The position numbers and the translations under genes were made by a program. From the NCBI GenBank assembly GCA_017694945.1, contig JADIMA010000082.1, positions 1-64,000 of the forward strand: 64,000 nucleotides of DNA. Reading direction: 5' to 3'. Shown here one piece after another: positions 207 to 62,919 of this stretch. The stretch is from Candidatus Merdivivens pullicola. Lineage in GTDB: Bacteria > Bacteroidota > Bacteroidia > Bacteroidales > UBA932. How positions within the stretch are numbered: position 1 is the first letter of the stretch; each line of letters begins with the position of its first letter. The notes under the pieces were generated by a model, which saw only the letters and a program-made list of their open reading frames with translations, had not been told where the DNA came from and did not search any database.

Positions 207-357
207 AATATCGTAATATACTGATATATTGTAAATTACTATTATTATAATATTTTACAGGTATGGAATTCGAGGGCTTCCGAACCCTTTGAATTCCATA
301 CCTGTTTTTTGCGTGTTGTTTTTCTTGATTTACAATAAATTACAAGAATAAAAGTTA
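207..357. repeat. ~150-bp dispersed repeat, copy 1, with central hairpin (258-304) followed by T6
   Basis: Near collinear match to 57321-57478; perfect 14-bp arms CAGGTATGGAATTC / GAATTCCATACCTG. Confidence 0.85.
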
Positions 358-5367: not shown

Positions 5368-8300
5368 ATGAAACGTTTTTTGTGTTTTCTGGCATTGGCA
5401 GTTGTCTTTTCGACGGCTGCAAATGCCATTGCCGACCGTTATCAGGACAAGCGCCTGAAATTTAAAAAAGATTGGACGGAATATTCCAGGGCTGAAGAAA
5501 AGGATCTGCCCAAGACTCAGGAAAGGATACTGGAAAGGATAATGGACAAGGCGGTTTCCGAGGATGCCTGTCTCGATCTTTGCTATGCTTTCGACGAGTA
5601 TGTGTCATTGTCCGGCTATGATCGGGAGGAGTTGCCGGACAGGCTTGATTATATATATGGTGTGATAGAAGGGCTGCCGTCGGTACAGATGAAATGCCTT
5701 ATGTATCTGTCGGTGAGGCAGGATGCCCCTCAAAGGGCCACGGATTCGTTGGCTTCATGCCTGGAGAGGAACAAGGACGCGCTCATCGGGAAGCACCGTA
5801 TCACAGCAGGCATGGCGTCCGCCGTTGGCGGCTCCATCGATGAGGCTTTCCATTATATAGACGATTACGAATTTCTTCTCAAAAAGTTGATATATACATA
5901 CTGGCCGGGGATGTCCCGTGTTCCGGCCGGCTATATTGACAAACTGGTGGAATATTGTTCCGGAGCCGGAGAAGAATACATGATAAATTTAGTGGACGCC
6001 CTGATGATAAAAGCCGGGCACGAGGCCGAAAACGCTTATGCCGGGACCGGGAACGGGGAATTGATCAGGCGTTACAGGGAAATAGCCGACAGTTGCGGGG
6101 ACAATGCGGCATGGATTATTCCGGTTTCGCGTATGGCGGAACTTCTCCGTATCCGTTCAGGGAGCGAAGACGAATTTCTTTCCCTCGATTCCATGTCGAG
6201 GCAGGCTATAGCATGGGCGGATGAAAAACTTTCGCAGAAAGATATCCCGTTTTATGAAAAACAGTTGCTTGAAGACCGGAAGGAGGATATCGAACATGTC
6301 ATTGACATGCTGAATGAAAAGGCGATTTACGATCTGACCGAATATTTCCCGTATCCTTGCGAGACCGAGATTGTGTTTGCCGTGAAAAATTGCAGTGACG
6401 TGCATGTGACTATAAACAAGTCGGATCTTTCCGGAATCGTCATGGATGAGACTGTGCATTGTCCCGGAACAAGGAGTTTCGGAGTGGAGGATACGCTCGT
6501 CCTGTTTACTTTGCCGGCTCTGGAAGACGGGAATTATAACATATCATATTATATTCCCGGAGAAAACGCTGCATTGTGGAACAGGATAAGCCGTCGTCTC
6601 GATGTGTCTTCTTATTCTGTGGCGATGAGGACGGGATCCGACGGGATTCCCGAGTTTTATCTGACTGATGCGAGGACGGGGAAGCCTGTTGAAAGTTCCG
6701 GCTTTACAATTGAGTTTGAGGACAAGGGGCGCGAGCCTTTTTCGTCAGTAATGGATTTTGACGGTTTTACGAAACTTCCGGTTGAAATAGACTGTTACGC
6801 CCGTCTCCGTTTTGTCTCCCCGGACGGCAGGCGTTCTCCCGAGGTCCCGATATATCCTGAGCGTCCGCATTATTCGGGAAGCCGGCCTTATGATGCTTCC
6901 TACGGAGAGTTTTTCCTTGACAGGAAACTGTTCAGGCCCGGCGAGAAAGTGCGTTTTAAATATGTGGCATATCATTCGAATGGCAGGAGGCTCGGTGTCG
7001 AACCCGGGAAAACAGTGTCCGTGGGGCTTTATGCTTCGGACGGCAGGCTGGTTGATAGCCTTTCTTGCACGACCGGCGATTTCGGTTCAGCCTCAGGGGA
7101 GTTCGAGATTCCTGAAGGTCTGATGAACGGGACTTTCAGCATAAGGACAAAAAGCGGCAGCATGGAATATTTCCGTGTCGAGGATGCGGAGCCGCCTGTT
7201 TTCTCGGCCGGCTTCAACCCGGTGGAAGGCATTTTCAGGTATGGCGATTCATTGTCGGTTTCCGGTTATGTCAAAAGTTACAGAGGATATGATGTGGAGG
7301 GAGCCAAGGTGGCATATACGGTTGAAGACCGCTGGGGAGGCCGGGAGTTTTCCGGGAAAACATATACCGGACGGGACGGGAGTTTTTCAATACCTGTCGT
7401 GATGACCGGGGGCTATATGTGCATTAATGCCGTGGCCACCATGCAGGACGGCAGTTCTCTTGAGTTCCGCAAATCGTTGATGACCGATGAGTATGGGGTG
7501 GAACTGTCGATTTTGACCGATTGTCTTAAAGTATCCGACGACGGCGGGTTTTATTCAATAGGAGATGACAGCCTTGCGTTTGAACTGGAGGCGAAAAACA
7601 GGGACGGTGTCGTTCTGGACAGCCTTGCATGCCGCTATTCGGTCTGCCGTGTCGGCGAGGACGGCAAGAAGCGTGTTGTTTTCTCGGCAGACGCATTTAC
7701 AGGAGAAAAACTGGTTGTCGGCAAAGAAATGTTGTCTCCGGGCGAATACGAGGTGTCGTTTTCTTATGAGTCGGACGGACTTGTGAACAGCGAGGCCCGG
7801 AGTTTTATTTTCCTTGAAGATTCCGAAGCCGCTTATCCGGATATTGACAGGCCGTATGTGTTTGTGGAGGTTTCAGGTGATACGTGCCTCATGGGCGGCA
7901 GGGACAGCCTGTGGGTGCTTGCGGAATATTTCGACTTGAATACCGGGGAACTTCTGGAAGTAGGCCGGGATGTGCTGGTTCCGGGCATTCATCGCATATG
8001 TGACAGTATTCCGGAACTTTATCCGGGCAGGAGCCTTGTGCGTTCTCTCTATGTCGTAAAGGAAGGTGAGGCAAAAGTCTTGCGGACGGATCTTTCGAGC
8101 ACGGCGGACTTCTCCATTGACATGGAGGTGGCTTCGCTCAGGAAGGTCACTTCTTCCGGGACTACGGAATATTTTACTTTGATTTTTCCAGACACTCATG
8201 ATGTTGAAGTGCTCGTGGATATTTTTGACAAGAGTTCGGAAGATATCATGTCCAATAAATATTATTTCGCTCCCCAGAATGTGCTTAAGCGGGCTTATGT

Positions 8301-10725
8301 CCCTTATCCTTACTCTTATTTCGGGGGAAGCGGTCATTTCAGGGATTTTGCAATGTCGTCCGGCAATGTCGTGATGAAAGCGGATGCGGCTGTGGCTGAA
8401 AGAGCGATGGGTTCTGCTTCCGATGAACGCGCGTTATATATTCCTGATGACATTCTGAGGAAAGATTTCTCATCGACTCTCGCTTTCTATCCTCACCTGA
8501 GGCCTGATGCTGATGGCCGTATCGAGGTATGTTACGGGACTTCGGCAAGGCTTTCGACTTTTGTCGTGCAGATTCTGGCCCATGACAAGGCGTTGAGGAC
8601 TGCGTTTGCAAGGGATGAAGTTGTCGTGAAACGTGAATTGATGGTTTCGGCATCCGTGCCGGATTTCCTGCGCGTGGGCGACAGCGCGGTGCTTGCGCTT
8701 GCCGTGAAAAACGACATGGACGCTCCGGCTTACGGGCGTTTTGTCGTGGAAATGTATGACGCGTCCCGTGAGGATTCGCTTGCCGTTCCTGCATACAGGT
8801 GGCAGAGCGCGCCGGTATTTGTAGATGCAGGTGGAACCGTTTCGGAAAATGCGGCGCTGCCGGTTGCCGACGGGAAAATCTCCCGATATGCCTTGCGTTT
8901 TGCGTTTGTCGGTGAGAATGATACCAAAGTGAGCGATGCTGAAGAGCATGTCCTGTCTGTCGTTCCGTCTGATATCGTCGCTGTCAATACGGTGTCCGCG
9001 ATTTCTGATGCGTCGGGAATGGCTGCAGTGGATGTGCGGGAGTTGTCCGATACGGGCGGCAATCCGATATACCGCATAGATGTCTCTACTCCTGTGTCAG
9101 CCGCCATAGATGCCATGCCGCTTGTTCTGGAACCTTCCGTAAACTCTCTGACAGACTGGGTTGACGCCCTTGTGACGATGAAGGTGGCTGAAAGGTTGCT
9201 TGCGGAAAAGCCGGGAATGGCTGACTATGTCAGGGCTTTGGAGCCCGAAGATGTTGCCGGGTATGAAAACACTCCGTGGTATGATTACATGGCGGAGCAG
9301 AATGCCGGACTGGCCGCGCTGGATTCATTGCTGTCGCCTTCGTGGAGGCAGCGTTTCTCGGAAGAGGCCGTTTACAGGATACGCGGGTTCAGATATTCGA
9401 ACGGGGCTTTTTCTTGGTTCCCAGGAGGAAAACCATCTGCATACATGACATTGATGCTGCTTGAACGTTATGCCGTTTGCAGCGCCTTCGGTATCGGCTA
9501 TTCCGAGGAAGAGGCCGAATGTATTTCAGGAGCGCTCGCTTATCTTGATGAGGAGTTTTCATCGCGCATGAAACATGTCTCGGATTCATTGGGCTGGAGG
9601 GAATATTCTTCCGAATTGTTTGACCGTGACGGTTTTGTCCATGATTATATGTTTGTCCGTTCGTTTTACCGTAATTCGGTTCCTTTGTCGGGAACGGCGG
9701 GGCGATTTTATGATAAATGTGAAAAACTGATGGCAAGGAGGGCTGCTCGTGCGGATGTTCCTTTGAAAATCAAATTCGCGCATGTGCTTTTGAACGGCGA
9801 CCGTTATTCCGGAAGCAGGAGAATGGCGGATATTGTGGCTTCGCTTTATGAACATGCTTCCGCCGACAGATGGGGCAATCTGTGCTTCGCCCCCGGGCGG
9901 CACGGACTTTATGGAATATTTGATTCGGAAGTATATGTCAATTCTTCGGCTCTGATGCTTTTCGACGAACTGGAAGCCCGTGGAATCAATGACAGGCGCG
10001 GTTCAGCCGGAAAGGTGTCATCTTTGGCTGACGGTACGGAGCGGCATCTGCTTTCACTCAAGGAAGGGACTGACTGGGGGGACGGCATAAGGACTGCGGT
10101 GGCTGTATCCGCTTTGATCTCACGTTCTTCCGGAGAGTTTCCGGAAAAGTCGTCTTCTATCATTGCCGATGCATCCGGTCTGGATTCTCTGGCTGGGGAC
10201 GACGGCATTCTGAGGATTGCGGCCTCCGATGCCGGCAATCTCATGATTGTTTCAGTATCGAAGATTTATCGCACCGTGATTGAAGATCTGGGCAGTTCCG
10301 GGAACGGTATTTCCGTAAGGCGTGAATTTTACCGGAGGCCTTTGGCGTCTTCTTCACTGGAACCTTTGACAGAAGGTTCGCATATTGAGAAAGGGGATGT
10401 GATAGTCTGCCGGTATGTCATTGACAACGACCAAGCACGTTCTTTTGTCAGGTTAAGTGCGATGAAACCTGCCTGCTTTGCGGCAACCGACATCCGTTCC
10501 GGCTATGCCTATTCGTGGCGTACTTCTTTCCCTGCTTACAGGGACATACAGGAAAGCCATACTGATTATTATGTCGATTACCTTCCGGAAGGCGTTTCAG
10601 AACTTACCGAAGAGTTTTTCGTTACTGTGTCGGGGACTTTCTCGGCTGGAAATGTTGAGATTGTTTCACTGTATGCGCCTCAATACAGAGGCTGTACGGA
10701 GGCACAGGAAGTGCATGTGCAGTGA
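5368..10725 (+). CDS. Alpha-2-macroglobulin-like (MG2-containing) exported protein, 1785 aa
   Basis: Signal peptide; FFLDRKLFRPGEKVRFKYVAY...; long Ig-like MG architecture; no CxEQ thioester motif seen. Confidence 0.85.
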   Translation: MKRFLCFLALAVVFSTAANAIADRYQDKRLKFKKDWTEYSRAEEKDLPKTQERILERIMDKAVSEDACLDLCYAFDEYVSLSGYDREELPDRLDYIYGVIEGLPSVQMKCLMYLSVRQDAPQRATDSLASCLERNKDALIGKHRITAGMASAVGGSIDEAFHYIDDYEFLLKKLIYTYWPGMSRVPAGYIDKLVEYCSGAGEEYMINLVDALMIKAGHEAENAYAGTGNGELIRRYREIADSCGDNAAWIIPVSRMAELLRIRSGSEDEFLSLDSMSRQAIAWADEKLSQKDIPFYEKQLLEDRKEDIEHVIDMLNEKAIYDLTEYFPYPCETEIVFAVKNCSDVHVTINKSDLSGIVMDETVHCPGTRSFGVEDTLVLFTLPALEDGNYNISYYIPGENAALWNRISRRLDVSSYSVAMRTGSDGIPEFYLTDARTGKPVESSGFTIEFEDKGREPFSSVMDFDGFTKLPVEIDCYARLRFVSPDGRRSPEVPIYPERPHYSGSRPYDASYGEFFLDRKLFRPGEKVRFKYVAYHSNGRRLGVEPGKTVSVGLYASDGRLVDSLSCTTGDFGSASGEFEIPEGLMNGTFSIRTKSGSMEYFRVEDAEPPVFSAGFNPVEGIFRYGDSLSVSGYVKSYRGYDVEGAKVAYTVEDRWGGREFSGKTYTGRDGSFSIPVVMTGGYMCINAVATMQDGSSLEFRKSLMTDEYGVELSILTDCLKVSDDGGFYSIGDDSLAFELEAKNRDGVVLDSLACRYSVCRVGEDGKKRVVFSADAFTGEKLVVGKEMLSPGEYEVSFSYESDGLVNSEARSFIFLEDSEAAYPDIDRPYVFVEVSGDTCLMGGRDSLWVLAEYFDLNTGELLEVGRDVLVPGIHRICDSIPELYPGRSLVRSLYVVKEGEAKVLRTDLSSTADFSIDMEVASLRKVTSSGTTEYFTLIFPDTHDVEVLVDIFDKSSEDIMSNKYYFAPQNVLKRAYVPYPYSYFGGSGHFRDFAMSSGNVVMKADAAVAERAMGSASDERALYIPDDILRKDFSSTLAFYPHLRPDADGRIEVCYGTSARLSTFVVQILAHDKALRTAFARDEVVVKRELMVSASVPDFLRVGDSAVLALAVKNDMDAPAYGRFVVEMYDASREDSLAVPAYRWQSAPVFVDAGGTVSENAALPVADGKISRYALRFAFVGENDTKVSDAEEHVLSVVPSDIVAVNTVSAISDASGMAAVDVRELSDTGGNPIYRIDVSTPVSAAIDAMPLVLEPSVNSLTDWVDALVTMKVAERLLAEKPGMADYVRALEPEDVAGYENTPWYDYMAEQNAGLAALDSLLSPSWRQRFSEEAVYRIRGFRYSNGAFSWFPGGKPSAYMTLMLLERYAVCSAFGIGYSEEEAECISGALAYLDEEFSSRMKHVSDSLGWREYSSELFDRDGFVHDYMFVRSFYRNSVPLSGTAGRFYDKCEKLMARRAARADVPLKIKFAHVLLNGDRYSGSRRMADIVASLYEHASADRWGNLCFAPGRHGLYGIFDSEVYVNSSALMLFDELEARGINDRRGSAGKVSSLADGTERHLLSLKEGTDWGDGIRTAVAVSALISRSSGEFPEKSSSIIADASGLDSLAGDDGILRIAASDAGNLMIVSVSKIYRTVIEDLGSSGNGISVRREFYRRPLASSSLEPLTEGSHIEKGDVIVCRYVIDNDQARSFVRLSAMKPACFAATDIRSGYAYSWRTSFPAYRDIQESHTDYYVDYLPEGVSELTEEFFVTVSGTFSAGNVEIVSLYAPQYRGCTEAQEVHVQ

Positions 10726-10818
10726 GAGGCCTTCGCGCATGCCTGAGTCAAGTCTGGGTATGGTCTTGGATTTTGCAAGGTTAGCATTGTGCCGTATTTG
10801 CTACTTTTAAAAACAATA

Positions 10819-10848
10819 AAGCCTGTTAATCAAGCGATTAACAGGCTT
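10819..10848. terminator. Intrinsic (bidirectional) terminator
   Basis: AAGCCTGTTAATC caag-type loop GATTAACAGGCTT followed by TT. Confidence 0.8.
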
Positions 10849-10854
10849 TTCCTG

Positions 10855-10926
10855 TACCCCCGTGGGGAATCGAACCCCAACCTAAAGAACCGGAATCTTC
10901 AATTCTATCCATTAAACTACGGAGGC
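10855..10926 (-). tRNA. tRNA-Arg (anticodon CCG)
   Basis: Minus strand GCCTCCGTAGTTTAATGG...GAAGATTCCGGTTCTTT...GGTTCGATTCC...CGGGGGTA; cloverleaf and anticodon loop TTCCGGT. Confidence 0.93.
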
Positions 10927-10938
10927 AGTTTTGGACTG

Positions 10939-10946
10939 CAAATATA
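10939..10946 (-). promoter_or_regulatory. -7 box TATATTTG of tRNA-Arg
   Basis: Same CTATATTTGCAGTCC leader as the tRNA-Asn genes. Confidence 0.6.
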
Positions 10947-10967
10947 GCAAATAAAGATAAAATACTA

Positions 10968-10975
10968 TATCTTTG
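10968..10975 (+). promoter_or_regulatory. -7 box TATCTTTG upstream of fabD
   Basis: Matches TAnnTTTG. Confidence 0.5.
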
Positions 10976-11017
10976 CGCCTGAATTTGTTAAAGACTAAAT
11001 TTTAATACAAATAGTTT

Positions 11018-11926
11018 ATGAAAGCATATGTTTTCCCCGGTCAAGGTTCTCAGTTTACCGGGATGGGTAAATCCCTGTATGACGGGAATGCCAAGGCTAA
11101 GGAATTATTTGAATGTGCAAATGATATTCTCGGTTTCCGTATTACGGATGTGATGTTTTCCGGTACTGCCGAGGATCTCAAGGCTACAAAAGTGACACAA
11201 CCGGCTATTTTCGTTCACTCGGTATTGTTGGCAAGTTGTCTGAAAGACGGTGACGTTATAGACGGATATGAGGGCGGTTTTAATCCGGACATGGTTGCAG
11301 GACATTCTTTAGGAGAGTTCTCCGCCCTTACTGCGGCAGGAGCCCTTTCTTTTGAAGACGGTCTGCGTCTCGTCGCAATACGTGCTTCGGCAATGCAGAA
11401 AGCCTGTGAAATCAAGCCTTCTACAATGGCGGCAATCCTCGGAATGGACAGTGCGAAGATAGAGGAAGTCTGCCGTGAAGAGGTTGAAGGAATTGTAGTT
11501 CCGGCCAATTACAATTGCGATGGGCAAGTGGTTATTTCCGGTGACATGGAAGCAGTTAAAAGAGCCTGCGACAAACTGAAGGCGGCTGGTGCGAAACGTG
11601 CCGTGATGCTGGCCGTAGGCGGAGCATTCCACTCTCCGCTGATGGAGCCTGCCAGGGCGGAACTGGCAGAAGCGATAGAAAAGACAGTTTTCTCCGCTCC
11701 GGTATGTCCGGTTTATCAGAATGTCGATGCACGGCCTAATACCGATCCTTCCGCAATAAAGGCCAATCTTCTCTCGCAACTTACATCGCCTGTTAGATGG
11801 ACCCAGACGGTTAAGAACATGGCAGCCGACGGCGCCGACGAATTCATAGAACTCGGGCCGGGTACAGTCCTTCAGGGATTGGCCAAGAAGATTATTCCAG
11901 GAGTCAACGCTATTTCAATAGCATAA
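11018..11926 (+). CDS. fabD: Malonyl-CoA:ACP transacylase
   Basis: FPGQGSQFTGMG, GHSLGEFSAL, GGAFHSPLM. Confidence 0.96.
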   Translation: MKAYVFPGQGSQFTGMGKSLYDGNAKAKELFECANDILGFRITDVMFSGTAEDLKATKVTQPAIFVHSVLLASCLKDGDVIDGYEGGFNPDMVAGHSLGEFSALTAAGALSFEDGLRLVAIRASAMQKACEIKPSTMAAILGMDSAKIEEVCREEVEGIVVPANYNCDGQVVISGDMEAVKRACDKLKAAGAKRAVMLAVGGAFHSPLMEPARAELAEAIEKTVFSAPVCPVYQNVDARPNTDPSAIKANLLSQLTSPVRWTQTVKNMAADGADEFIELGPGTVLQGLAKKIIPGVNAISIA

Positions 11927-11945: not shown

Positions 11946-14900
11946 ATGGCGAAAGAGAAAAAATTCATTACATGCGACGGTAATTATGCCGCTGCTCACA
12001 TGGCATACCTTTTCAGTGAACATGCTGCAATCTATCCGATCACCCCTTCATCGACAATGGCTGAATATGTTGACGAATGGGCTGCCGCAGGAAAGAAAAA
12101 CCTGTTCGGCGAAGTCGTGAAGGTGACGGAGATGCAGAGTGAGGCCGGAGCCGCAGGAGCGGTGCATGGTTCTTTGCAGGCTGGCACCCTTACAACTACG
12201 TTTACGGCTTCGCAGGGTCTGTTGCTGATGATACCGAACATGTACAAGATAGCAGGCGAACTCCTGCCTTGTGTCTTCCATGTTTCTGCCCGCAGCCTTG
12301 CCAAACAGGCGCTTTCGATTTTCGGCGACCATCAGGATGTGATGGCAGTGCGGCAGACAGGATTCGCGATGCTCGCTTCGGCAAGTGTCCAGGAGGCATT
12401 GGACATGGCAGCAGTGGCGCATCTGGCGACGATAAAGTCAAGAGTGCCTTTCGTGCATTTTTTTGACGGTTTCAGGACATCCCACGAAATACAGAAGATA
12501 GAGTTGATAGACGAGGATGCATTGCGTTCGATGCTCAGTGAAAAAGCGCTGGCTGCTTTCCGCGAGCGCGCCCTCAATCCGGATGCTCCTGTAATAAGGG
12601 GCACTGCCCAGAATCCGGACGTGTATTTCCAGGCATGCGAGGCTTCCAACGGGTATTATGACGCCCTTCCTGATATTGTCGCCCGTTATATGGGAGAAAT
12701 CAGCGAAGAGACAGGCAGGGAGTACAGGCCGTTCGAATATTATGGCAATCCTGAAGCGGAGAACATAATAGTGGCGATGGGTTCCGTATGCGAAACCATA
12801 AAGGAAACAATCGATTATCTGAACAGGTTCGGAAGGAAATACGGTCTTGTTACCGTGCGCCTGTATCGTCCGTTCTCGGAAAAATATTTCATGAAAGTCC
12901 TTCCTAAGTCAGTGAAGAGGATAGCCGTTCTTGACCGTTCAAAAGAACCGGGTTCACTCGGTGAGCCTTTGTACATGGATATCAAGACCCTCTTTGAAGG
13001 CAAGTCCAATGCTCCTCTCATCATAGGAGGCCGTTACGGGCTTTCGTCCAAGGATACCAGCCCGGCGCAGATTGTGGCTGTTTTCGACAACCTCGAATTA
13101 CCGGAGCCTAAAAACGGCTTTACAATAGGCATCGTGGATGACGTCACTTTCAAGTCGCTTCCTGTCAAATATGAAATAAGCATAGTGAAAGAGGGGACGA
13201 CGGAGTGCAAGTTCTACGGTCTGGGTTCGGACGGTACGGTCGGAGCAAACAAGAATACGATTAAAATCATCGGCAATCATACTTCGAAATTCTGCCAGGG
13301 TTATTTCGACTACGACTCGAAAAAATCCGGCGGCTACACATGTTCGCACCTCCGTTTCGGGGATTCTCCGATAAAGGCTCCTTATCTTGTTTCTACACCG
13401 GACTTCGTAGCCTGCCATGTGCCTTCGTACTTGAAAAAATACGATGTACTCAACGGCATCAAGCAGGGGGGTACCTTCCTCCTGAACAGTCTCTGGCCTG
13501 TAGAAGAGACCCTTGAAAGGATTCCTGACAATGTGAAGGCCACTATTGTAAGGAAGGACATAACACTCTATGTGATTAATGCGACGAAGATTGCCGCTGA
13601 AATAGGTCTGGGCGGGCGTACAAACACTATCCTCCAGTCAGCATTTTTCAAGATTACCGGCATAATCCCTTACGAGGAAGCCGTAAGGTACATGAAGCAG
13701 GCCATCGACAAGAGTTATGGCAAGAAAGGCGAGCAGGTCGTGAAAATGAATTATGCAGCAGTTGACAGGGGCGGGGAATATGAAAAAGTCGAGATTCCGG
13801 AGTCATGGAAAGAACTCGTTTCGGACAGGTTTGTAAACCCTAACAAGGATCGTCTTGCCACTGATTTTGTGAAGAACATCGCCGATGTATGCAACGCACA
13901 GGAAGGCAACAGGATTCCGGTAAGCGCCTTTGCAGGCGACGGGGTTGACGGCACCATTCCTTGCGGAACGGCTGCATATGAAAAGAGGGGAGTCGCCGTC
14001 AAGGTTCCTTCATGGCTTCCTGACAACTGTATCCAGTGCAACATGTGCGCATATGTGTGTCCTCACGCTGCCATCCGTCCGTTCATCATGACTGCTGACG
14101 AGGCGGCAAAGGCTCCTCAGGCTGTCAAGAGGGCGGCAGGAAAGGCTCAGTTGAAAGACTATTTCTTTACGATGCAGGTTTCTCCTATGGACTGCACGGG
14201 TTGCGGCAATTGCGCCGATGTCTGCCCTGCTAAAGAAAAGGCCCTTGTGATGTCTTCTCTGGAATCGCAGATTGAAGAGCAGAAGTCCTTCGACTATCTT
14301 CACAGTGCCGTAGGCTACAAGGATACTATTCTTCCGAAAGAACAGAATGTGAAGGCATCCCAGTTTGCGCAGCCTTTGTTCGAGTTCTCGGGAGCATGTG
14401 CCGGGTGCGGTGAAACCCCTTATGTGAAGGCAATCTCGCAGTTGTTCGGCGAAAGCATGATGGTAGCGAACGCAACCGGCTGTTCTTCAATATACAGCGC
14501 TTCGTTCCCGTCATCACCGTATTGTACGAATGCAGAGGGACACGGCCCGGCATGGGCAAACTCTCTGTTTGAGGACAATGCCGAATTCGGTCTCGGTATG
14601 AAGATAGGTTCGGACTGCGTGCGCAATTATGTGGAGAGACTGATGAAAGAAGGCCTTGCATGCGACTGCTGCAGTGCTGAAATAAAGGCCCTCTTCACCG
14701 AGTGGATAGAAAACAGGAACGACCGGAAGGTTACCCGCTCCGTAGCCGACAGGCTTGTGCCTTTGATGAAAGATTGCGGTTGCGACATATGCAACAGGAT
14801 TCTGGAATACGAGCATTTCATTCCTGCCCGTTCACAGTGGATCATCGGTGGTGACGGCTGGGCATACGACATAGGCTACGGCGGACTTGACCATGTTCTG

Positions 14901-55907: not shown

Positions 55908-57110
55908 ATGGATTCGATTAAAAACATATACAGAATAGGTCGCGGCCCTTCAAGCAGCCATACCATGGCTCCGATGAGGGCGGCGCAGATGTTTCTTGAA
56001 AAATCGGGCAGGCATGCGTCCCGGTATGAAGTAGAACTTTACGGCTCGCTTGCTTCCACCGGGAAGGGGCACTTGACCGATGTCGCCATTCTGGACGTGC
56101 TGTCCCCGGTGGCGCCATCCGAAATAATATGGCATCCCGACACAAATCTTCCGATGCACCCCAATGGGATGATTTTCAAAGCCTATGATGGGGATGGGAA
56201 TGTAGCCGTGTCATGGACTGTGTATAGCACGGGGGGCGGCGCCCTGGCTGATGATACCTGGGACGAACGCAGGACGGAGAATATTTATGAGATGGATTGG
56301 ATCGGCGATATTTACAGGTGGTGCAGCAATACGGGGTGTTCTTATTGGGAATATGTAGAACAGCATGAGGACAAGGATATATGGGATTATCTCTTCGAGG
56401 CGTGGAAAAAAATGCAGGAAGTAGTCCATCGCGGGCTGGATACCGAGGGGGTCATCCCCGGAGGGCTGGGGCTGAGAAGAAAAGCCGGCGAGTACCACAT
56501 CAAGGCTGTCGGTTATAGCAATGCTGTAAGAGGAAGGGGACTGGTGTATTCCTATGCCCTTGCGGTATCTGAAGAAAACGCCTGCGGCGGAGAGGTGGTT
56601 ACCGCTCCTACATGCGGTTCGTCCGGGGTTTTGCCGGCGGTGCTTTTCCATTTGAAAAGAAGCAGGGATTTTTCAGACAAAAAAATCCTGCACGCCATGG
56701 CGACGGCCGGTCTTTTCGGCAATGTCGTGAGGACGAATGCTTCCGTATCCGGGGCGGCTGTGGGTTGTCAGGGAGAAGTGGGTGTCGCCTGTGCCATGGC
56801 TGCTGCTGCGGCAAGCCAACTGTTCGGAGGTACTCCTTCCCAGATTGAATATGCAGCAGAAATGGGGCTGGAGCATCATCTCGGACTTACCTGTGACCCT
56901 GTAGGCGGCCTCGTCCAGATACCCTGCATAGAACGTAACGCCTTTGCGGCGGCGCGTGCTCTCGACGCCAATACATATTCTAATTTTTCTGATGGCAGGC
57001 ACAGGGTGAGTTTTGATGATGTGGTGGATGTCATGCAGCAGACGGGAAAGGATCTTCCGAGCCTGTATAAAGAAACTTCACAAGGGGGGTTGGCAAAAAG
57101 ATTGGTGTGA
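55908..57110 (+). CDS. sdaA: L-serine ammonia-lyase
   Basis: GRGPSSSHTMAPMRAA, APTCGSSGVLPAV, GCQGEVGVACAMAAAA. Confidence 0.95.
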   Translation: MDSIKNIYRIGRGPSSSHTMAPMRAAQMFLEKSGRHASRYEVELYGSLASTGKGHLTDVAILDVLSPVAPSEIIWHPDTNLPMHPNGMIFKAYDGDGNVAVSWTVYSTGGGALADDTWDERRTENIYEMDWIGDIYRWCSNTGCSYWEYVEQHEDKDIWDYLFEAWKKMQEVVHRGLDTEGVIPGGLGLRRKAGEYHIKAVGYSNAVRGRGLVYSYALAVSEENACGGEVVTAPTCGSSGVLPAVLFHLKRSRDFSDKKILHAMATAGLFGNVVRTNASVSGAAVGCQGEVGVACAMAAAAASQLFGGTPSQIEYAAEMGLEHHLGLTCDPVGGLVQIPCIERNAFAAARALDANTYSNFSDGRHRVSFDDVVDVMQQTGKDLPSLYKETSQGGLAKRLV

Positions 57111-57211: not shown

Positions 57212-57297
57212 TTTCTGTATTATGATGAAAAGCGTTGCCATGTTCCCCTTTGTGTCCCCCTTCCAGTTCTGAAAAATAACCCGGTATGCCTTCTTTG

Positions 57298-57493
57298 GGC
57301 CACGCCCCGACTTAATTTAAAGATATCGCAATATATTGATATATAATAGATTACTATTGTAATAATATTTTACAGGTGTGGATTCTGAGGGTGTCGGAAG
57401 CCCTTGAAATCCACACTTGTTTTTTGGAGCGCATGTTGTTTATTCTTGATTTACAATGGATTGCAAAGATTAAAGTTAAGTCGGGGCGTGGCC
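57298..57493. repeat. 196-bp MITE-like element with perfect 18-bp terminal inverted repeats enclosing repeat copy 2
   Basis: GGCCACGCCCCGACTTAA (57298-57315) and TTAAGTCGGGGCGTGGCC (57476-57493). Confidence 0.75.
57321..57478. repeat. ~150-bp dispersed repeat, copy 2, hairpin 57373-57419 followed by T6
   Basis: Alignment to 207-357; arms CAGGTGTGGATT / AATCCACACTTG. Confidence 0.85.
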
Positions 57494-57666
57494 TTGGCTG
57501 CACCTCATGCTGCCGGAAGGTGTTTTGCCGGGAAAGTGAACCATTTTCCCGAGAATTCCAGACGCTTTCCCGGAACTCTCGAGTTTGTACTTTATGTCCC
57601 CCATAATGTCCTACTATATCGGAAACTGACGTATGTTATTGATAATCAATCAGTGTATTATATATT

Positions 57667-60600
57667 TTGTGGTTTCAAAAGGACTACACCCCTGACATTA
57701 ACAAGGTCCGCGAGGACATGGTGACTGCCCTTGAAGAGCAGAACCAGGCTCTTACGGAAGCTATCAATTCCCTTAGGGAAGAAGCGAGACAGCTTGCTGC
57801 TGCAGCCGAGCAGACTGCAAAAGATTATGCTGACGCTGCGGCTGAAGCAGCCGAGCAGGCTGCAATAGCAGAGGCTGAGAATTTGGCTGAAGCGGCACGT
57901 CAGGCTGCAATAGAAGCAGCCCAGAAAGCCGCTGACAATGCCCTGGCCCTTGCAAAAGAGTATGCCGACATGGTCGCTGCTCAGAAAGCAAGTGAGGTAA
58001 AGGCTGAAATCATTGCTGAAATTCAGGATGACTTGAAGAGGACCCTTGAAGATGCAAAGGCTTATACCGATGCGGAACTCAAGGAACTTGAAGACGCACT
58101 CAACCTGAAGATTAATGAACTTGCAAGCCGTATCGAGGGTGTGGCTGCCGATTTCCAGAAGCAACTTGAAGACTATGCCGATCAGTTCAACGGCCAGTTG
58201 GATCAACTCGAGCAGGATTTGCTTGATCAACTTGGAGACTTGTCGGACAGTCTGAGGGAAGAACTCGGTAACCTTGAGGAAAATTTCAATGGCCAGCTTG
58301 GCAACCTTGAGGACGATTTGAACGGTCAGATCGGCGGGCTTGAAGATCAGATCGGCGGGCTTCGCGATAGTCTTTACAACCAGTTGAATGAAATCCATTC
58401 GCAGGTTTACGAGATTATGAGCAATTTGAACTCCCTGTCTTCAATAGTTGAGGCTCAAGGCGAGCAGATCAACGGCCTTATTGCCTTGACTACTCAATTG
58501 GAGGCAAGGATTGAGACTCTTGAAGCATACAAACTCACCGTGGATGACTTCATGAAAGAGACTGAGCAGACATTCAATGAGTTGAACGAACGCCTTGGCG
58601 GACTTGACGACCGTTTGGATTCAATGGAAGAGGCTCATGGACAGGATATAGATGCTTTGAAATCTGCCATTGAAAATACAAGGTCTGAAATGTCCGAGTA
58701 TGTTGAAGACTTGCAGTTGCAGATTAATGCAATCAATACTTTGGTGCTCAACCTCCAGGAACTCTATGGCGAAGTAAGTGCGGAGATTGCAAAACTTTAT
58801 GGCGAAATAGCCCTTCTCGGCAACCGGGTTGACGGTGTTGAAAACAGCCTTGCTGCTTACCAGGAAGCGATTGACAACTACCTTGAAATACTCAGGGCTG
58901 AACTTGAAGCAGCGATTGCGGCCGGCGACAATGCTACAGCGCAGGCAGTTAAGGAAGAACTCATCAACAAACTCAACGAATCTCTCGAGATTGTAGAAAA
59001 CAGGCTCAGGGAATACTTCACTACCGAACTTTCCGAACTTGAAAACCTGTTCGGAATGGAACTGGCGAAAGTGAGAAGCGAACTCTCTGCAAATTACAAT
59101 GAACTCAATTCGAAAATCGATGAGTTGAGGAAGGAAATGTTCGTGATAGAAAAAGCGATTTATGCTTATGTCAACGAAAGCATCAATACTCTTACCGAAG
59201 ATATCCGCGACCAGTTTGCCGCTGTCAACGCGAAACTTGGCAAGAGGCTTACTTCCATCACATTGATTCCTGAAACCTATGTGAACGGTGTTCCTTCGGT
59301 AATGATTCCTGTCCTTACTTACAATCCGTATGTAGAAGACGAGGCAACGCCTGAAGTTTTCACAAAAGACAACAAAGTCACTTATTACAGTTCGATTGAT
59401 ACGATTGCTGTCCGTTATCACCTTTCTCCTGACCATATAGATATTAACGGTATAGTTAAGAATGATATCAATTATGTATTCGAGGCTGCCGAAATGGTTA
59501 AGAGCTATGTGGCAAGCGAGGATCTGGACTGGTTCACTATCGACTACGATGAAATCGTTATCAATGACAGGAACGAACTTGTTATCCCTCTCTTGAGGAA
59601 CGCTATTGAGATGACTGAAGGCGAAACGGTTGATTTCCGCACTACTTCTGACAGGGAAATCATTACAGGTGCATTGAAGGTTCCTATCGCTGAAGCGCTT
59701 CTTACCGACGAAGAGAAACAGAACAACGGCGCTTCTGTTACATCGGAATACACTGCATTCTACGATGATCCGCGCAATATCCATATAACCCCGTTGAAAG
59801 ATCTCAACCAGGATATTAACGGATATTCATGTGAGAACGGCCACAAACGTTTCTCTACTACATTCAATGCTGTTAAATCCGTTTCTGTATTGCCTTCCGT
59901 TGAAGTAAGGTATGACGAGGGCATCGACCTCCTTTCACTCGTTACTTCATGCGCTTATGCAATTAACGACCAGGCAAGGTGCAAGGAAATTTCAAAGGAA
60001 ACTTTGAAAGACCACGGCTTCGAGTTCAGGTTCTCTATTCCTGCGGAATATTACAAAGGCACTGAAAAGACCAACGAGCAGGATTTCGTTCAGTTCGTAT
60101 CCGGAAGCACTACAAGCGTCGAGGCCAAACTCCCTGGCGGAGTTACCGACAACAGGGCATCGGTAGGCAGGACTCCTGTCATCCGCGTAGAGTTGGTTAA
60201 TGTTGACGACAACGCTATCGTCGATGTACAGTGGTTCAAGATAGTATGGGTTGACGAAGAAATCGAGGATGTAGAACTCGGCAACATCAAGACTTTCGAT
60301 TATCTCCTCAGCTGCAACGATTTCAGAGGCGAACTCACATGGCAGGAATTCAATGACAAGGTTATTTCCAAGATAGGCGCTGCCGGAATGTCGCACGAAG
60401 AATTCGGTCAGAAGTATGTAAGGAACGGTAAACTCAATACTACGGTGGTTCTTGATGCAGAGGCTGAAAACTTCAACGATGTGACTGGTACTATCGATAT
60501 CGACTACCCTGTTTCAGAGGTTGAACTTACTACTGCAATCCTCGGCTGGTCGCTTACAGTAGCCGAAATCGGCGATGTAATTGACGAGATACTTGAAAAC

Positions 60601-61827
60601 GGCAAGGTAAGCAAGACTATCGACGTTACTATCCATCCTAATGGCGTGGGCGCTCCTGAAGTTACATTCTCTCTCACGATGAACGTTCTTCCTGGCGACC
60701 TCCCTGCAATCAACGGATACAACGATTCCAAGTGGTCTGATGCAAACCATACCCTTGCTCCGGTATATCCGGTCGCTTATGCCGCTAAGGACGGTGACGA
60801 TGTAACTACTGAGGAATGCTATTACTACTACTCTCTTATGGATCTCTTCCGCGCTGACGGCAAGGGCAACATAATCAAGAACCTTTACATCTCTGAGGCA
60901 CAGGCTGAGGCATACGGTTCCGAAACAGCTTTCGACTGCCGTGCATGGGATATGCAGTTCTCGGCAACTCAGGAAAATACTCCTGATGAAAACTACGTGG
61001 CAGAGTTTGTAAACTTTGATCAGGACTATGCCGGATTCAATGATGAAAAAGGCTATAGTTTCATATACAATTACAGCGCTGGCTGGGAAATAGATATAGC
61101 CGGTCTTGCACCGGTGGGCTATCCTGATGCCATTGCCAATTGGTACAGAGGAACTGAAGATTCTTATCTGCAGAACTTCTACATATCTGTTCCGAGCATG
61201 ATGGGCTCTCCATACGATCCTGAAGTAATCGCTATCGTAAGCGATCCTGAAGATGCAGAGAAGGTGACAGTGACTATCGACGTATGGGCACAAATCAACC
61301 TTTACAACATCATGAAGGTTACTTCATTCGATGTATGGTTCGTAGCACCTCTTACTTTCTCCGAGCCTAATGTAACCAAGTCAATAACCGATGCCTTCGG
61401 TACAGAGCAGTCAATCACTCTTGACGAATATCTCGGCCAGGTTAAGGACTTCGACGGCGCAAGGGTTGACAAGGATGAGGACATGTGCGAATACTATGGC
61501 CTTGAATACGCTTGGGGCGCAGAAGAGACCATCCGCGTGAACATGAAACTTGAAGGCGACAATCTGACTGTTGATACATCACTCGATCCTGCAAATCCGG
61601 AGGATTACGAACAGATGCTCACTCTTGAAGAGGCAAGGCTCGCTGATTTCGTAACTCTTGAGGATGACGGGGCTGGTAACACCGTACTCAAATACCGTCG
61701 TACGGCAGGTACCGCAAACGTTCAGACAGTTACGATGTACATCCCTGTAACTTATACCCACATCTGGGGCAGTGAACTGATGTATGCTGCAATTGAACTC
61801 AAACCGAGCGGTTCGATAGTTGATTAA
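57667..61827 (+). CDS. Large alanine-rich coiled-coil surface-type protein, 5' end abnormal (no ATG before codon 18, no signal peptide)
   Basis: Heptad-rich N-terminal ~500 aa then beta-rich Bacteroidetes-type domains; open from about 57646 (after in-frame TAA 57643-57645); TTG at 57667, first ATG 57718. Confidence 0.75.
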   Translation: MWFQKDYTPDINKVREDMVTALEEQNQALTEAINSLREEARQLAAAAEQTAKDYADAAAEAAEQAAIAEAENLAEAARQAAIEAAQKAADNALALAKEYADMVAAQKASEVKAEIIAEIQDDLKRTLEDAKAYTDAELKELEDALNLKINELASRIEGVAADFQKQLEDYADQFNGQLDQLEQDLLDQLGDLSDSLREELGNLEENFNGQLGNLEDDLNGQIGGLEDQIGGLRDSLYNQLNEIHSQVYEIMSNLNSLSSIVEAQGEQINGLIALTTQLEARIETLEAYKLTVDDFMKETEQTFNELNERLGGLDDRLDSMEEAHGQDIDALKSAIENTRSEMSEYVEDLQLQINAINTLVLNLQELYGEVSAEIAKLYGEIALLGNRVDGVENSLAAYQEAIDNYLEILRAELEAAIAAGDNATAQAVKEELINKLNESLEIVENRLREYFTTELSELENLFGMELAKVRSELSANYNELNSKIDELRKEMFVIEKAIYAYVNESINTLTEDIRDQFAAVNAKLGKRLTSITLIPETYVNGVPSVMIPVLTYNPYVEDEATPEVFTKDNKVTYYSSIDTIAVRYHLSPDHIDINGIVKNDINYVFEAAEMVKSYVASEDLDWFTIDYDEIVINDRNELVIPLLRNAIEMTEGETVDFRTTSDREIITGALKVPIAEALLTDEEKQNNGASVTSEYTAFYDDPRNIHITPLKDLNQDINGYSCENGHKRFSTTFNAVKSVSVLPSVEVRYDEGIDLLSLVTSCAYAINDQARCKEISKETLKDHGFEFRFSIPAEYYKGTEKTNEQDFVQFVSGSTTSVEAKLPGGVTDNRASVGRTPVIRVELVNVDDNAIVDVQWFKIVWVDEEIEDVELGNIKTFDYLLSCNDFRGELTWQEFNDKVISKIGAAGMSHEEFGQKYVRNGKLNTTVVLDAEAENFNDVTGTIDIDYPVSEVELTTAILGWSLTVAEIGDVIDEILENGKVSKTIDVTIHPNGVGAPEVTFSLTMNVLPGDLPAINGYNDSKWSDANHTLAPVYPVAYAAKDGDDVTTEECYYYYSLMDLFRADGKGNIIKNLYISEAQAEAYGSETAFDCRAWDMQFSATQENTPDENYVAEFVNFDQDYAGFNDEKGYSFIYNYSAGWEIDIAGLAPVGYPDAIANWYRGTEDSYLQNFYISVPSMMGSPYDPEVIAIVSDPEDAEKVTVTIDVWAQINLYNIMKVTSFDVWFVAPLTFSEPNVTKSITDAFGTEQSITLDEYLGQVKDFDGARVDKDEDMCEYYGLEYAWGAEETIRVNMKLEGDNLTVDTSLDPANPEDYEQMLTLEEARLADFVTLEDDGAGNTVLKYRRTAGTANVQTVTMYIPVTYTHIWGSELMYAAIELKPSGSIVD
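58327..58368. repeat. 21-bp in-frame tandem repeat (QIGGLED/QIGGLRD)
   Basis: CAGATCGGCGGGCTTGAAGAT CAGATCGGCGGGCTTCGCGAT. Confidence 0.8.
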
Positions 61828-61869
61828 TGAAAACAGGTTCTTTCAGATAATATTCATTAATTAAACGGA

Positions 61870-61900
61870 TGGGGTGTGTCGCTCATGACGGCACACCCCA
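61870..61900 (+). terminator. Intrinsic terminator
   Basis: TGGGGTGTG...CACACCCCA TTTTC. Confidence 0.8.
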
Positions 61901-61963
61901 TTTTCTTATATGTTTTTACAAATAATTGATTGAATTTTTAAAGAAAAATCATGCTATTTGAAA

Positions 61964-62067
61964 AAAAATGTCTATATTTGCAGTCCCAAAATTCCTCATT
62001 AGCTCAGTTGGTTAGAGCATCTGACTGTTAATCAGAGGGTCCTAGGTTCAAGTCCTAGATGAGGAGC
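61964..62067 (+). repeat. 104-bp direct repeat copy A (promoter core plus tRNA-Asn)
   Basis: Identical by eye to 62816-62919. Confidence 0.9.
61993..62066 (+). tRNA. tRNA-Asn (anticodon GTT)
   Basis: TCCTCATTAGCTCAGTTGG...CTGTTAATC...GGTTCAAGTCC...ATGAGGAG; CCA follows at 62067-62069. Confidence 0.96.
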
Positions 62068-62070
62068 CAA

Positions 62071-62815: not shown

Positions 62816-62919
62816 AAAAATGTCTATATTTGCAGTCCCAAAATTCCTCATTAGCTCAGTTGGTTAGAGCATCTGACTGTTAATCAGAGGGTCCTAGGTT
62901 CAAGTCCTAGATGAGGAGC
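62816..62919 (+). repeat. 104-bp direct repeat copy B (promoter core plus tRNA-Asn)
   Basis: Identical by eye to 61964-62067. Confidence 0.9.
62845..62918 (+). tRNA. tRNA-Asn (anticodon GTT), second copy
   Basis: Identical to copy A; CCA not encoded (followed by CAGG). Confidence 0.96.

Follow-up and report, generated by a model that had tools for sequence, protein, structure and literature searches.

In Bacteroides fragilis, intergenic shufflons switch which SusC/SusD genes stand behind a promoter (PMC5729914), the invertase there being Tsr0667 (PMC11852207). In the Vsa system of Mycoplasma pulmonis, a promoter and 5′ coding region are moved onto silent 3′ bodies (PMC2268961), and the sfx sites of the R64 shufflon are asymmetric, variable in one flank and with a short stretch of conserved sequence in the other (PMC11852207). 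Here we set beside these systems a long open frame, W, that lacks a leader and lies near the end of a 64,000-nt stretch of Candidatus Merdivivens pullicola DNA (assembly GCA_017694945.1, contig JADIMA010000082.1, positions 1–64,000 of the forward strand; hereafter the window). The contig, C71, belongs to an 87-contig, 1.89 Mb draft genome of the genus Ca. Merdivivens (Bacteroidales). W is probably a silent full-length cassette of a recombinase-driven, leader-swapping antigenic-variation system that is dispersed on the chromosome.

The W cassette comprises three elements:

57646–61827, forward strand: W, a leaderless open frame of 1,393 codons plus stop codon, the proposed silent cassette body
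57675–57690, forward strand: the 16-bp core TCAAAAGGACTACACC, the proposed recombination site, with boundaries set by six contexts
61867–61903, forward strand: the intrinsic terminator of the W cassette (−26.1 kcal/mol, z −6.5)

The W frame (57646–61824, stop codon 61825–61827) is intact throughout, and the chance of an open frame of 1,393 codons at the local base composition is about 4e-31. It is opened by an in-frame TAA (57643–57645), with no leader between this TAA and the core; the intervening codons read TCA ATC AGT GTA TTA TAT ATT TTG TGG TTT. The TTG at 57667–57669 on the forward strand is the sole start codon before the core and the coil, giving 1,386 residues when counted from it, and the first ATG falls at 57718. 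The sequence upstream of the core lacks a Cys, a signal peptide and a lipobox, and a TAnnTTTG box is absent from the 600 nt that precede W. A weak sigma-70-like match at 57639–57668 does not stand out from shuffled sequence (the region has 10 such matches where 8.0 are expected), and the promoter consensus of Bacteroidota does not use sigma-70 hexamers. The terminator begins 40 bp past the stop codon; the 3′ end is therefore complete, and the 5′ expression signals alone are missing. The encoded protein would consist of an alanine-rich N-terminal coiled-coil stalk (about residues 1–515) and a large C-terminal head. Searches of Pfam and NCBIfam returned generic coiled-coil matches only, with no family above the cut-off for the head; Baculo_PEP_C and DUF1664 exceeded the Pfam thresholds across the repetitive coil and were taken as coil artefacts. 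An AlphaFold model of the head built from three sequences was unsuccessful (mean predicted local distance difference test score of 35).

A protein search of the same genome identified two W paralogs, S and A, arranged tail-to-tail on another contig, C14, together with a recombinase gene (coordinates are those of locus L043 on that contig):

7620–11132, forward strand: S, a leaderless paralog of W
14675–11265, reverse strand: A, a leader-bearing paralog of W
6363–7523, directly upstream of S: a tyrosine recombinase (Phage_integrase 4.8e-25, SAM_5, Arm-DNA-bind_5)

S begins TAA-TCT-CAA-AAG-GAC-TAC-ACC, has no leader and adjoins the recombinase, which retains recognisable catalytic motifs (TGLR, HTARH and GHTSISTTQIY). 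A starts with MKGFLRKVMLIASLGATLTFFGCQKDYTNDIN, an ordinary lipoprotein signal with the lipobox FFGC, and its leader/body junction reads MKGFLRKVMLIASLGATLTFFGC followed directly by QKDYT. Upstream of A, TTTG-N19-TACATTTG (14840–14833) corresponds to the Bacteroidota promoter consensus. The leader locus, which neighbours gpsA, is most likely the single expression locus: promoter, signal peptide and FFGC lipobox are found on A only, and W, S and an orphan copy of the core described below are without them. An 11-G run lies just upstream of the leader promoter (14884–14894) and could provide the expression locus with a second switch, acting by slippage. The 132 bp that separate S from A hold the terminators of both, one each. 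The cores of S and A are inverted relative to each other, at C14:7622 on the forward strand and C14:14607 on the reverse strand, with a 7.0-kb segment between them. The bodies themselves have diverged widely, S and A being 38% and 34% identical to W in a four-sequence alignment and the pairwise BLAST identities between body proteins ranging from 29 to 43%. Nucleotide differences between W and S are most frequent at third codon positions (678, against 407 at second positions).

Against this divergence, W, S and A are identical across exactly 16 bases, the first of which is the third base of A's lipobox Cys codon. This core encodes Q-K-D-Y-T, the residues directly after the lipidated lipobox Cys in A. 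On its upstream side the three are unrelated; on its downstream side they diverge immediately at silent positions. With two mismatches allowed, the 1.89 Mb genome contains four exact cores and one two-mismatch copy, where 0.0009 exact cores are expected from base composition. Among 300 genomes of the family, the core occurs four times here, twice in Candidatus M. pullistercoris and not at all in the other 298. Its five codons are invariant (5/5) in all four bodies, namely W, S, A and body B of Ca. M. pullistercoris; outside the core, of the 96 columns in which all four bodies share a residue, only 16 retain a single codon, which puts the independent-column chance of 5/5 codon identity at about 1e-4. 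The fourth exact copy in this genome has no body attached:

C31:371–386 (locus L054): an orphan core, an exact copy with unrelated non-coding DNA downstream

Reading from this orphan stops after about 24 codons, and similarity is lost abruptly on both sides. Because the orphan core stands in a non-coding context, coding constraint cannot explain the 16-mer. Its rarity, the orphan copy and the codon invariance together argue that the 16-mer is a DNA site, beyond a conserved peptide.

These results agree closely with what the initial annotation had read from the window. The frame of about 1390 codons is indeed intact and lacks a leader, a lipobox and a TAnnTTTG box; a paralog with signal peptide and promoter that shares the sequence at 57640–57720, for which it had proposed a search, exists as A on C14, the sharing beginning exactly at 57675; and the suggestion of a donor cassette is supported and can be refined to a cassette with a 16-bp site and a linked tyrosine recombinase.

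The site is also present in a second species. In Ca. M. pullistercoris the core occupies two slots, one on the recombinase side and one on the sdaA side. On the recombinase side, an ortholog 70% identical to the recombinase of C14 is followed downstream by a core joined to the leaderless body B, and a tyrosine recombinase is thus linked to a body in both species, beside S here and beside B there. On the sdaA side, the core lies 575 bp downstream of sdaA on contig C85, after dnaX and an ABC-transporter gene. This slot is the same locus as W, marked in the window by the syntenic upstream neighbour:

55908–57110, forward strand: sdaA (L-serine dehydratase), syntenic with C85

No start codon precedes the core in the sdaA-side slot of Ca. 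M. pullistercoris, and the TTG is not conserved. The two slots share their first 30 nt, and on the sdaA side the contig breaks off 14 bases after the core; the shared stretch and the contig end are suggestive of two upstream sequences leading into one body. B is nearer to W in the stalk (50% against 35% to S, alignment columns 420–525) and nearer to S in the head (56–58% against 37–39% to W), a mosaic that, as judged from these identities, probably reflects intragenic exchange over evolutionary time. A DNA match in this species to the leader promoter was rejected as a leader because the matched sequence precedes a 16S rRNA gene.

Identical cores, a single leader, inverted S and A bodies, a linked recombinase and slots kept in a second species are observed directly, and from them we infer the following mechanism. 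The C14 locus beside gpsA would act as one expression site, supplying promoter, 5′ untranslated region, start codon, signal peptide and lipobox Cys up to the core, and the bodies A, S and W, each beginning at the core and each with its own stop codon and terminator, would be interchangeable behind it. The recombinase beside S would recombine cores. Flipping the 7.0 kb that lies from C14:7622 to C14:14607 would swap A and S at the leader. For W, whose core at 57675 would have to recombine with a core on C14, a large chromosomal rearrangement would be needed; it would place W either in the C14 cluster or immediately after the leader, and W would then be expressed. As the crossover would fall right after the Cys codon, the leader would give start, signal peptide and lipid anchor, and the body would give the QKDYT N-terminus, stalk and head. 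Placed behind the leader, the orphan half on C31 would yield only some 24 residues, amounting to an OFF state. In surface lipoproteins of Bacteroidales, acidic residues that immediately follow the Cys serve as an export signal (PMC12632263), and the K-D of the core may act as such a signal.

Taken further, the arrangement could be a chromosome-wide shufflon, in which scattered bodies are swapped at the +2 residue after the lipidated Cys onto one signal-peptide/lipobox leader by way of the 16-bp site, large rearrangements are the normal price and the orphan is a blank OFF cassette; this wider proposal is tentative, and we think it somewhat doubtful.

Several points weigh against the proposed cassette system. 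The assemblies show no alternative arrangement, and should the W core and the C14 cores, which lie on separate contigs of the 87-contig draft, be directly repeated, recombination would mean deletion and not inversion. A very large inversion would be costly, and W may accordingly be used rarely. The core is not palindromic, and no classical two-arm tyrosine-recombinase site is visible. Finally, no leader was found in the assembly of Ca. M. pullistercoris, from which gpsA, the neighbour of the leader, is also missing.

The window also contains, upstream of W, an interspersed repeat:

57268–57510: an interspersed repeat of about 245 bp, with terminal inverted repeats at 57298–57321 and 57470–57493; not part of the switch

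Some 50 matches to this repeat occur genome-wide (for example C11:8477–8714 and C54:46516–46758), a partial copy lies at window positions 208–357, and most of the longer copies are 79–87% identical to the one beside W. It is largely palindromic: its terminal inverted repeats read GGCCACGCCCCGACTTAA, its inner hairpin GTGTGGATT...AAATCCACAC. It looks like an element of the miniature inverted-repeat transposable element type. Rfam gave no match to the repeat at the gathering score; a weak MIR6224 match over it probably reflects its long palindrome. Another copy lies at C31:567–805, about 180 bp upstream of the orphan core and in the same orientation as at the W slot, perhaps by chance.

Of the ways in which W could be something other than a usable cassette, the one that deserves most attention is that it is a stranded relic of a past site-specific rearrangement, no longer used, its core a fossil and the working switch confined to S and A on C14. 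Its position on another contig with neither recombinase nor leader nearby would fit, as would the orphan core on C31, which shows that sites can persist without a body. We nevertheless consider this unlikely: the 1,393-codon frame has stayed intact despite large divergence that is greatest at third codon positions, the core of W is still perfect and the slot is kept in a second species. W might instead donate sequence by homologous gene conversion, in the manner of vlsE or pilS, without site-specific recombination, and the W-like stalk and S-like head of the mosaic B are what such exchange would leave. This is improbable, given that DNA similarity between bodies outside the core amounts to short stretches of about 71–81% identity and not to long homology, that conservation stops sharply at the core edge, at the non-coding orphan included, and that a tyrosine recombinase is linked.

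Translation from TTG 57667 or ATG 57718 would make W a cytoplasmic coiled-coil protein, for which an intact frame with an in-frame TTG shortly before the core could be cited; that there is no Bacteroidota promoter, that in Ca. M. pullistercoris the corresponding slot lacks any start codon ahead of the core, that among full-length paralogs the closest one is a lipoprotein, and that a distant relative in Marseilla massiliensis has a signal peptide render this very improbable. Least credible is a 5′ truncation of W, whether through the interspersed repeat or through some other mobile element; truncation by a mobile element was the alternative offered by the initial annotation. The multi-copy repeat does end only 165 bp upstream of the core, but its boundary, at about 57510, is not at the 5′ end of a frame that opens at 57646, S is leaderless without any repeat upstream, and the core is common to five other places. 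More directly, the sdaA-side slot of Ca. M. pullistercoris is leaderless from the same base and free of the repeat, which contradicts truncation by the repeat and shows that the leaderless state predates the repeat and does not depend on it. The initial annotation had further reasoned that relatives with the same N-terminus always fixed at this locus would speak against a donor; here the outcome is divided, as the sdaA-side site is indeed kept in two species but only the site is seen to be fixed, the second contig ending so soon after it.

A third genome of the genus (G002), which has neither the bodies nor the 16-mer, provides a comparison of gene order. There tadA and gpsA are adjacent, and in the present genome an 8.7-kb block of recombinase, S and A stands between them. 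The window is collinear with C1 of G002 up to 57220 (C1:155056), except for internal rearrangements near 15–25 kb, and the right flank of W (tRNA-Asn, hsp20, an HU-like gene and the end of metG) corresponds to a different contig, C33 (170–175 kb). A breakpoint in gene order between the two genomes therefore lies at or beside the W slot, which, on this comparison of order, is compatible with a past rearrangement there and is no proof of one. Because the order breaks at 57220, the orientation of W cannot be inferred from G002, and a route in which W is reached by a 120-kb inversion followed by a 7-kb inversion, derived from the G002 gene order, was set aside. The right flank opens with the following feature:

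61993–62069, forward strand: tRNA-Asn, the first feature of the right flank, which is on C33 in G002

The window has two tRNA-Asn genes (61993–62069 and 62845–62919) with near-identical 5′ flanks and hsp20 between them; in G002, two tRNA-Lys genes occupy the position before hsp20. On C33 (locus L068, 12244–14235), a 664-codon open frame that is no relative of the cassette lies between tRNA-Asn and the HU-like gene, an interval that is short in the present genome.

Beyond the genus, the species genomes of GTDB yielded a sole other homolog, in Marseilla massiliensis, matched over residues 3–915 with 24% identity in the best segment. It starts with a signal peptide and VSCKDYDDDIN and is an ordinary leader-bearing lipoprotein; its surroundings showed neither silent copies nor a recombinase nor the 16-mer. 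Signal peptide II and lipobox Cys are present in A and in this homolog and absent from W itself. Neither the junction nor the leader nor the recombinase had a copy in viral collections, and there is accordingly no evidence for a prophage.

In this poorly studied, uncultured chicken-gut lineage of Bacteroidales, the locus has the appearance of antigenic variation by leader swapping. A crossover at the lipidation codon would turn any body into a surface lipoprotein, and the dispersed cassette and orphan site suggest a recombinase whose action may extend over the chromosome, beyond its local cluster. More generally, long frames without a start codon in Bacteroidota, easily called pseudogenes, can be silent cassettes, and a shared 16-mer just after the lipobox reveals them.

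Compared with described systems, the arrangement resembles the SusC/SusD (RagA/B) shufflon of B. fragilis, also of Bacteroidales, in which inverted repeats lie at the 5′ end of surface-protein genes and a dedicated invertase is present. There, however, repeats and start codon overlap and the genes form one cluster, whereas here the site follows the signal peptide and lipobox, within the mature N-terminus, one body and one orphan site are on other contigs, and the cargo is a coiled-coil lipoprotein. That cargo resembles the Bacteroidota coiled-coil surface lipoproteins beginning C-K-D-Y-D-D-D-I, of which the M. massiliensis homolog shares the layout and has an ordinary leader. With Vpma of Mycoplasma agalactiae (Xer1), Vsp of M. 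bovis (Mbr) and Vsa of M. pulmonis (HvsR), lipoproteins that switch by site-specific inversion, the locus has in common one expression locus, silent lipoprotein bodies, short identical sites and a linked tyrosine recombinase, although phylum and proteins are unrelated and the sites of Vpma and Vsp are in the 5′ untranslated region. Judged by analogy, Vsa is the nearest functional analogue; the 5′ coding part moved there is 714 nt, compared with a signal peptide and lipobox only, about 68 nt of coding sequence, here. One-sided conservation of the site, with the conserved stretch inside coding sequence, recalls the R64 shufflon (Rci, sfx), in which the C-termini of a pilus protein are switched, unlike the N-terminal junction here; the recombinase here is an Arm-DNA-bind_5/SAM_5 integrase of Bacteroidota type. 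The kind of system is known; what sets this locus apart is the proposed crossover after the lipidation codon, the coiled-coil lipoprotein cargo, and the location of one full body and one orphan site away from the C14 contig.

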